From a bacterium (GTDB lineage Bacteria > Patescibacteriota > Gracilibacteria > JAHISY01), in contig JAJYAT010000004.1 in NCBI GenBank assembly GCA_021779375.1, positions 1 to 64,000 on the forward strand: DNA of 64,000 bases, in the 5' to 3' direction. Positions 34,031-53,816 of the stretch are shown here, piece after piece. Both the position numbers and the translations under genes were made by a program. The notes below the pieces were generated by a model. The model made no database searches and had not been told where the DNA came from. It saw nothing but the letters and a program-made list of their open reading frames with translations. The number at the start of each line of letters is the position of its first letter. Within the stretch, counting starts at the first letter, position 1.

Positions 34031-35287
34031 ATGATTTCGACCTCCAAAAAATTTGTCATAATACTAGGGGTTTTCACCACTGGGTTTATTGCGGGACATT
34101 TTCTCACGCCAGGTTTTGTCGAAAACGCACCAGCCGAAATCGCCGCGGCGCCTGCGTCGGAAAGTGCGCTCACGAATTCCGCCACAGTCGGCGACCTCAA
34201 TGTCCCAATCTTCGACCAAGTCTGGCAAACGACGATGGCGAAATTTGTCGATGTCGAAAAGCTCAATCCCCAAAAAATGTTTTACGGCGCGATGAAAGGC
34301 GTGGTCGCGTCGCTCGGCGATCCGCACTCGGAATTCCTCGATCCGCAGGAGAGTGCGGAATTTCGCGATTCGCTCGCGGGAGAGCTGACTGGTATCGGCG
34401 CCGAGATCGGGATGCGCGACCAGGTACTTACGATTATTTCGCCGCTGCGTGGTTCGCCGGCGGAACGTGCCGGACTTTTGCCGGGTGACCGCATTTACAA
34501 AATCGACGACAAGCTCGCGGGTGAGCTCACCGTCTTCGAAGCGGTCAGCAAAATTCGCGGTGAGATCGGGACGACCGTCAAGCTCACGATTTTTCGCGGC
34601 GAGGAGCTTTCTCCTCGTGAAATTACGATTACGCGCGAATTGGTCGAAATCGCCAGCGTCACTTCCGCAGTCCGTGATGATGGTATCGCGGTCGTGACGG
34701 TCAATACTTTCGCTGACAATACCGCGGAAGAATTTGCTCGGGCGCTTTCCGAGCTCGCGCTCAAAAATCCAAAAGGCATCGTGCTGGATTTGCGCTACAA
34801 CGGCGGGGGATTTCTCGATGCTGCTATCGCGATGGCTTCCAATCTGCTGGCAAACGGAAACGTCGTCCAGATTCACGAGCGCGGTAAACCGGACGAGACG
34901 ATTCCAGTTTCTGGCGCGCCGCTTTTGCCCACGACACCGCTGGTCGTTTTGATTAATGAAGGTTCAGCTTCGGCTTCTGAAATTCTCGCGGGGGCGCTGC
35001 AAGACGCTGGACGCGCGAAGCTGCTCGGTGAAAAGAGTTTCGGCAAAGGCACGGTCCAGGAATTAATTTCTGATTTCGCCGATGGCAGCACGCTGCGAAT
35101 TACGGTGGCGAAATGGTTCACGCCGAAAGGTCGTGCCATCGACGGCGTCGGTCTCGATCCGGACATCGTCGTCAAAATGCCGCTCGAAGATTATTTCAGT
35201 GATCGCGATCCGCAGCTCGATGCCGCGGTCACCTTCCTCAAGACTGGTGAGACTCCGAAAGTTGAAAAATCTACCGAAGGAAATTAA
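34031..35287 (+). CDS. S41 C-terminal processing peptidase with PDZ domain
   Basis: PHSEFLDP, PDZ GIGAEIG...SPAERAGLLPGDRI, GIVLDLRYNGGGFLDAAI, NEGSASASEILAGAL, GEKSFGKGTVQ. Confidence 0.93.
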   Translation: MISTSKKFVIILGVFTTGFIAGHFLTPGFVENAPAEIAAAPASESALTNSATVGDLNVPIFDQVWQTTMAKFVDVEKLNPQKMFYGAMKGVVASLGDPHSEFLDPQESAEFRDSLAGELTGIGAEIGMRDQVLTIISPLRGSPAERAGLLPGDRIYKIDDKLAGELTVFEAVSKIRGEIGTTVKLTIFRGEELSPREITITRELVEIASVTSAVRDDGIAVVTVNTFADNTAEEFARALSELALKNPKGIVLDLRYNGGGFLDAAIAMASNLLANGNVVQIHERGKPDETIPVSGAPLLPTTPLVVLINEGSASASEILAGALQDAGRAKLLGEKSFGKGTVQELISDFADGSTLRITVAKWFTPKGRAIDGVGLDPDIVVKMPLEDYFSDRDPQLDAAVTFLKTGETPKVEKSTEGN

Positions 35288-35298
35288 AATCTCGCAAC

Positions 35299-35345
35299 TG
35301 CTCGGGTGGTGAAATTCCTGCCTGCCGGCAGGCAGGGGTATACAC
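35299..35345 (+). pseudogene. tRNA-Leu 5' fragment interrupted by a 20-bp palindrome
   Basis: TGCTCGGGTGGTGAAATT [CCTGCCTGCCGGCAGGCAGG] GGTATACAC matches the first 27 nt of the intact tRNA at 35614 (28 with the following G) once the palindrome is removed. Confidence 0.85.
35317..35336. repeat. 20-bp perfect palindrome CCTGCCTGCCGGCAGGCAGG
   Basis: Self-complementary; near-identical copy at 53788-53807. Confidence 0.85.
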
Positions 35346-35362
35346 GAGATGCTCTAGTTAAA

Positions 35363-35602
35363 ATGTTTTACACATATGTGATAAAAAGTCGAGAAAGAAA
35401 CTATATTTATGTCGGTTTAACAGGTGATCTCTTGAAAAGGGTGGGCGAACACAATCGTGGGATATCTCGAACTACAAGAAGTTATAAGCCGTTTGATTTA
35501 GTCCACTTCGAAAAATTTTCAACAAGAAACGAGGCTCGCGAAAGAGAAAAATATTTAAAGTCGGGCTGTGGTAAGGACTGGATTAAGAGTAAACTAGCTT
35601 GA
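35363..35602 (+). CDS. GIY-YIG nuclease domain protein
   Basis: MFYTYVIKSRERNYIYVGLTGDLLKRVGEHNRG...VHFEKFSTRNEAREREKYLKSGCGKDWIKSKL. Confidence 0.9.
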   Translation: MFYTYVIKSRERNYIYVGLTGDLLKRVGEHNRGISRTTRSYKPFDLVHFEKFSTRNEAREREKYLKSGCGKDWIKSKLA

Positions 35603-35613
35603 AATCTAGAATG

Positions 35614-35699
35614 TGCTCGGGTGGTGAAATTGGTATACACGTACGCTTGAGGTGCGTATGCCGCAAGGCGTGGAGGTTCAAGTCCTCTCCCGAGCACCA
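35614..35699 (+). tRNA. tRNA-Leu(GAG), CCA encoded
   Basis: Acceptor TGCTCGG/CCGAGCA+CCA, anticodon loop TTGAGGT, variable arm TGCCGCAAGGCG, T-arm GGAGGTTCAAGTCCTCT. Confidence 0.95.
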
Positions 35700-53767: not shown

Positions 53768-53816
53768 CCCTCCTTTCGCAAAGGAGGCCTGCCTGCCGGT
53801 AGGCAGGGTTAGGGAG
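53768..53816. repeat. dyad repeat TCCTTTCGCAAAGGAGG...GTTAGGGAGG carrying the 20-bp palindrome CCTGCCTGCCGGTAGGCAGG (53788-53807)
   Basis: Nested repeat structure seen directly. Confidence 0.75.

Follow-up and report, generated by a model that had tools for sequence, protein, structure and literature searches.

A GIY-YIG gene between two copies of a tRNA-Leu 5' end

The window, the 64,000-nucleotide stretch of DNA analysed here, contains a single tRNA gene, an intact tRNA-Leu(GAG) at 35615..35699 on the plus strand, detected by ARAGORN and concordantly by Rfam (RF00005, 52.4 bits). Its conserved upstream neighbour is a ctpA-type S41 peptidase gene (34031..35287, plus strand; Pfam PF03572, E=5.4e-49), which serves as a synteny anchor. 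Between the two lie a partial copy of the tRNA gene, referred to below as the stub, and a small ORF. The 28-nt sequence TGCTCGGGTGGTGAAATTGGTATACACG occurs uninterrupted at 35614-35641, and its second copy (35299-35346) is split by CCTGCCTGCCGGCAGGCAGG, a perfect 20-bp palindrome at 35317..35336 (no strand assigned). The palindrome interrupts the stub in its D-loop and separates tRNA nt 17 from nt 18: nt 1-17 are found at 35300..35316 and nt 18-27 (GGTATACACG) at 35337..35346, both on the plus strand. A repeat finder describes the tRNA copies as a 33-nt direct repeat with 85% identity and 315 bp spacing. The palindrome found no match in 100 shuffles of the sequence, and the two features together, an identical 28-nt repeat and a perfect 20-bp palindrome, far exceed what chance would give. 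Sequence search, ARAGORN and Rfam thus agree with the first-pass annotation, which had described the first 28 nt of tRNA-Leu(GAG) as present twice, with one copy interrupted by a 20-bp palindrome.

The ~15 bp 5' of the tRNA also seem partly duplicated (35284-35298 and 35599-35613), and the short spacer preceding the intact gene (35599..35614, plus strand) shows partial likeness to the ancestral upstream flank (35284-35299). The stub flank, taaaatctcgcaact, is similar to taaactctcaaaact, the flank of an empty site in a related genome (G003). As the stub occupies the original position and keeps the ancestral upstream flank, it represents the original 5' end of the gene, and it is the downstream copy that restores the gene. 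The arrangement had been said to fit neither a tyrosine-recombinase island nor intron homing, and this assessment holds: the GIY-YIG ORF is the sole gene between the tRNA copies, with no integrase there, and the duplicate is of the 5' end; intron families returned no match in the window, and the downstream tRNA needs no splicing to be complete.

As first delimited (35306-35602), the ORF matches the GIY-YIG family (PF01541, E=3.4e-17). Alignment with homologues places the true start at ATG 35363, giving a single-domain protein of 79 aa (35363..35602, plus strand) that does not overlap the stub; the location of a GIY-YIG ORF between the tRNA copies needed only this refinement. Residues Y5, Y16, G18, R26, H30 and E62 are invariant in 18 homologues, and again in 36, and the protein has the motif, the two Tyr, the Arg, the Glu and the domain fold of the GIY-YIG superfamily. 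Its predicted model (pLDDT 95.7) consists of one domain, and the nearest families by both profile and predicted fold are UPF0213 and SLX1, ahead of I-TevI. SLX1 is a structure-specific nuclease for branched DNA. The 79-aa protein lacks the separate region for binding a long DNA site that would mark a free-standing homing endonuclease. Comparison with the homologue at locus L022 (dN 0.25, dS 2.8) indicates purifying selection. At four loci (L002, L054, L095 and L243), the GIY-YIG frame extends into the next tRNA and yields C-termini such as SGVAQW, WGVAKW and SGSGAAR; such overruns likely mislead annotation, and recognising the element would aid annotators.

The ctpA/tRNA-Leu(GAG) neighbourhood is kept across the genus and family, with orthologues in four genomes. 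In two of them (G003 and G005), ctpA is followed by a plain tRNA-Leu(GAG) without insert; in G001, the neighbourhood is inverted; in G004, the ORF is absent and a stub is interrupted, at the same point in the D-loop, by another palindrome. Among the genomes compared, only that of the window has the GIY-YIG ORF at this locus, and its presence or absence varies within the genus. The empty site that the first-pass annotation had proposed to look for is therefore found in relatives at both the genus and the family level.

Recurrence at tRNA genes

In the genome from which the window derives (1.07 Mb, 14 contigs), four of its six small GIY-YIG genes are near a same-strand tRNA; a further match, within a much longer ORF, is taken to be uvrC. 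One locus in this genome (L002) repeats the layout at tRNA-Asn: a 5' half whose D-arm region contains a palindrome, a GIY-YIG ORF and an intact tRNA-Asn. The 59 related genomes surveyed contain 98 small GIY-YIG ORFs. Of these, 46 lie no more than 320 bp from a tRNA on their own strand and 1 from a tRNA on the opposite strand, against an expectation of 1.4% (binomial P ~2e-58, presuming uniform and independent placement of ORFs). When species genomes were scanned with the window's clade, 61 loci were recovered from Patescibacteria, Bacteroidota, Omnitrophota and others, the majority adjoining a same-strand tRNA; the query for the collection scan was a two-sequence alignment, and that for the class-level survey was the window's own protein, so this survey is biased towards its relatives.

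In the related genomes and the multi-phylum set combined, the ORF is flanked, on the side away from the tRNA, by a partial copy of that tRNA at 52 of 82 tRNA-linked loci; the other 30 have no detectable stub. The stub matches its local tRNA: the two tRNA-Gln genes at L053 and L055 differ from each other, and their stubs show just these differences. The flanking tRNA fragments that had been suggested as a check on homologues are thus seen, as partial copies of the neighbouring tRNA, at GIY-YIG ORFs in many genomes, and the contrary outcome, homologues without tRNA association, was not found in the relevant clades. The same layout at many tRNA genes in several phyla suggests a minimal mobile element that had not been described before, and not an accident of one locus. 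A search of the open-access full-text literature (subscription papers and preprints lay outside it) found no description of this arrangement. An assembly artefact is ruled out by the same layout in many independent assemblies, including that of L224 (chromosome record CP066689.1). A phage origin is unsupported: homologues are rare in phage records (5 matches), and plasmid collections hold few as well.

The statistically clear stubs fall into two mirror-image classes. In the DOWN class (36 loci), a 5' stub and the ORF precede the intact copy of the same tRNA; in the UP class (16 loci), the intact tRNA is followed by the ORF and a 3' stub. DOWN stubs usually contain tRNA nt 1 and end mostly between nt 20 and nt 63, with a median of ~13 nt from the stub to the matched GIY-YIG start. 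The duplication mostly ends within about two bases 5' of the mature tRNA start. Duplication of the upstream flank was considered as a general rule and rejected, as past ~nt -2 the flanks are unlike in most of 28 loci; L095 is a clear exception. Stubs are either interrupted by a GC-rich palindrome or have one arm replaced by it: perfect GC-rich inverted repeats with arms of at least 6 bp are present in 38 of 52 stubs and in 50 of 553 control windows (9%). The palindrome is a recurrent component of the stub, not an accident. One tRNA-Gln stub (L199) has a palindrome nested in another.

The five closest homologues, that of the window included, are all at tRNA-Leu genes: Leu-TAG in G003 (L022), Leu-GAG and Leu-CAA in one Flavobacteriales genome (L166 and L241) and a 3' Leu stub in G033 (L023). 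Every stub of this Leu clade, which spans Patescibacteria and Flavobacteriales, has a CCTGCCTG-type palindrome. One 20-row GIY-YIG clade is promiscuous over tRNA isotypes. Mapped onto the GIY-YIG tree, tRNA isotype requires 39 changes (shuffled mean 48, minimum 43 in 300 shuffles) and palindrome class 15 (minimum 19 in 500 shuffles), on a tree of short sequences with weak resolution, with palindrome classes set by simple patterns and some pairs that may be orthologous loci. That isotype and palindrome class appear to track the protein is supportive rather than decisive.

Palindromes and GIY-YIG genes in other settings

The palindrome family of the window has 13 copies with at most 3 mismatches in its own genome. 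A second copy in the window (53788..53807, no strand assigned; one mismatch) is intergenic and directly joins another hairpin, CCTCCTTTCGCAAAGGAGG; copies L017 and L258 likewise neighbour dispersed hairpins of other kinds, which hints that folded targets may be preferred. At three loci of the window genome (L011, L016 and L020), the palindrome is part of the coding frame of a long ORF, where it encodes LPAGRQ or LPTDRQ in a way that resembles the protein-coding palindromes of Rickettsia.

Among 28 copies of the family examined in several genomes, 11 are in tRNA stubs, and 8 of these 11 have no linked GIY-YIG ORF. In the window genome, ~7-8 of the 42 other tRNAs, among them Ala-TGC, Tyr, Lys-CTT, Phe, Leu-TAA, Pro-GGG and Arg, have a palindrome-bearing stub and no ORF (loci L113, L124, L129, L132, L015, L018 and L019). 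The GIY-YIG ORF is therefore either not strictly required in cis or has been lost at these sites: the ORF may have been lost, it may act in trans, or another enzyme may be involved. The HUH transposase family Y1_Tnp has four matches in this genome (G000:C3:19594, C10:51989, C2:86263 and C6:41970), all at other loci; the gene flanked by palindromes is the GIY-YIG gene, and not, as in a REP/RAYT system, an HUH Y1 gene.

Sister GIY-YIG genes away from tRNAs have boundaries of a different kind. Inverted repeats bound 26 of the 66 examined GIY-YIG genes that are not near a tRNA, and in one sister clade two copies in one genome are alike exactly between these repeats. Genome G061 has three copies (L240, L242 and L244) inserted at three start codons, a few bases past a TATAAT box, with 5-bp target duplications of ATGAA, ATGGA and ATGAA that restore the downstream start codon. 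Inverted repeats with copy-specific target duplications are likewise found at L175, L185 and L222. Inverted repeats with ~5-bp duplications at start codons have the signature of transposition-like insertion, and would favour it over intron-type homing. The window's own GIY-YIG copy has no clear inverted repeats bounding it; only the tRNA duplication is clear there. In another, non-tRNA GIY-YIG clade (L001, L043, L050, L068, L077, L083, L090 and L110), REP-like repeats such as GTCATTCCTGCGAAGGCAGGAATCCAG lie on both sides of the gene in a REPtron-like layout.

A candidate minimal mobile element

We consider that the locus is, on balance, probably occupied by a minimal mobile element of ~300 bp whose lone gene encodes a single-domain GIY-YIG nuclease, and which inserts at the ends of genes, mostly tRNA genes, with a target duplication that leaves one functional copy. 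Mobility finds good support in the comparison of the loci. The first-pass annotation had already raised the reading of a minimal tRNA-targeting element, which the empty sites and the recurrence support, with the endonuclease as its presumed driver. In the mechanism that we propose, insertion into the 5' part of the tRNA-Leu gene would duplicate the 5' portion of the target, nt 1-27 here and up to ~nt 60 elsewhere; the upstream copy would remain in its original position as a stub, and the downstream copy would rebuild the complete tRNA. In the mirror-image class, the 3' part would be duplicated instead. The GC-rich palindrome, which interrupts the stub or replaces one of its arms, presumably belongs to the same system. 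From the likeness of the GIY-YIG protein to UPF0213 and SLX1, we infer that it cuts branched or hairpin DNA and so catalyses movement; tRNA genes and palindromes would suit it as substrates, since each of their strands can fold. Subsequent joining and fill-in could duplicate the target stem-loop or put another in its place, in line with the IS1272 model, and the palindrome may in addition abolish the cut site within the stub. The target duplications at tRNAs (20-60 bp) and at start codons (~5 bp) may not share one mechanism.

The main rival is a free-standing homing endonuclease of the SegB type, which would cut intact tRNA alleles and spread into them by recombination with an occupied allele as template; the tandem partial duplications would stem from one-sided invasion together with the joining of ends between the cut site and the site of insertion. 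We regard this as rather unlikely, if worth serious attention. SegB, a free-standing GIY-YIG homing endonuclease of T-even phages, is found preferentially near tRNAs and brings about tandem amplification of tRNA-segB (PMC13096335), and the above-chance fit of isotype to the GIY-YIG tree and the strong Leu-to-Leu fidelity between phyla are what homing would give. However, the protein here is a single 79-aa domain without a DNA-binding region for a long site, closer in profile and predicted fold to SLX1 and UPF0213 than to I-TevI, and one 20-row clade is isotype-promiscuous; nor does homing predict palindromes in stubs or inverted repeats with 5-bp target duplications.

It is less probable still that the palindromes are moved by another enzyme, for example a RAYT-like Y1_Tnp, with slippage duplicates of tRNAs gathering palindromes and the GIY-YIG ORF a passenger in tolerated space. 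The four Y1_Tnp matches and the stub palindromes without a linked ORF would suit it, yet it would leave unexplained a same-strand bias of 46 to 1, the tight and repeated spacing, the tracking of the GIY-YIG tree by palindrome class and the inverted repeats that bound the sister GIY-YIG genes themselves. An arrangement useful to the host, in which the protein or the palindrome-bearing stub regulates or protects the downstream tRNA, seems to us very improbable: variable presence at the locus within the genus and the many isotypes targeted speak against it, and the remaining pattern is that of a selfish element, even though the protein is under purifying selection and ORF and tRNA are nearly always co-oriented.

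The minimal element favoured here shares features with several known systems. With SegB it has in common a GIY-YIG gene adjoining tRNA genes of many isotypes and a tandem duplication involving the tRNA 5' end; SegB is a phage gene, whereas the element is chromosomal, rare in phage records and single-domain, with a recurrent stub-palindrome-ORF-tRNA layout and sister elements bearing inverted repeats. REP/RAYT systems (REPtrons) likewise pair one small nuclease-type gene with short dispersed palindromes that also occur alone, but their enzyme is an HUH tyrosine transposase rather than a GIY-YIG protein, and the palindromes here lie inside duplicated tRNA pieces. Tyrosine-recombinase islands are kilobase-sized, encode an integrase and have att repeats at the 3' end of the tRNA. 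They too restore the tRNA and leave a fragment at the other end of the insert; the element described here, in contrast, has no integrase, is ~300 bp long and usually duplicates the 5' end. The model for stem-loop-replacing transposition of IS1272 permits replacement or duplication of the target hairpin (PMC5678879), and there too an inserted stem-loop supplants that of the target; IS1272, however, is an ordinary insertion sequence that encodes its own transposase; it has no GIY-YIG protein, and no preference for tRNA genes has been described for it. GIY-YIG ORFs also occur in rRNA insertions of CPR bacteria, where their authors judged them to be outside a homing context (PMC11270868): again a GIY-YIG ORF lies within a structured-RNA gene of the same radiation and not in an intron, but the gene is for rRNA and not tRNA, and the passages of that report on these insertions mention no duplication or palindrome.

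More tentatively, these elements could constitute a new class of transposable element, with a lone GIY-YIG domain as transposition enzyme and palindromic non-autonomous partners, aimed at folded DNA (tRNA genes) and at start codons and restoring the gene through target duplication; this possibility is an open bet rather than our expectation. We know of no other use of the GIY-YIG family for transposition in prokaryotes. If the proposal is correct, the element would be among the smallest autonomous mobile elements known in bacteria. Patescibacteria genomes contain tRNA fragments and palindromes, many of which it would account for; it would also provide a testable driver for short palindromic repeats, and it would suggest how elements can inhabit essential single-copy tRNA genes harmlessly.
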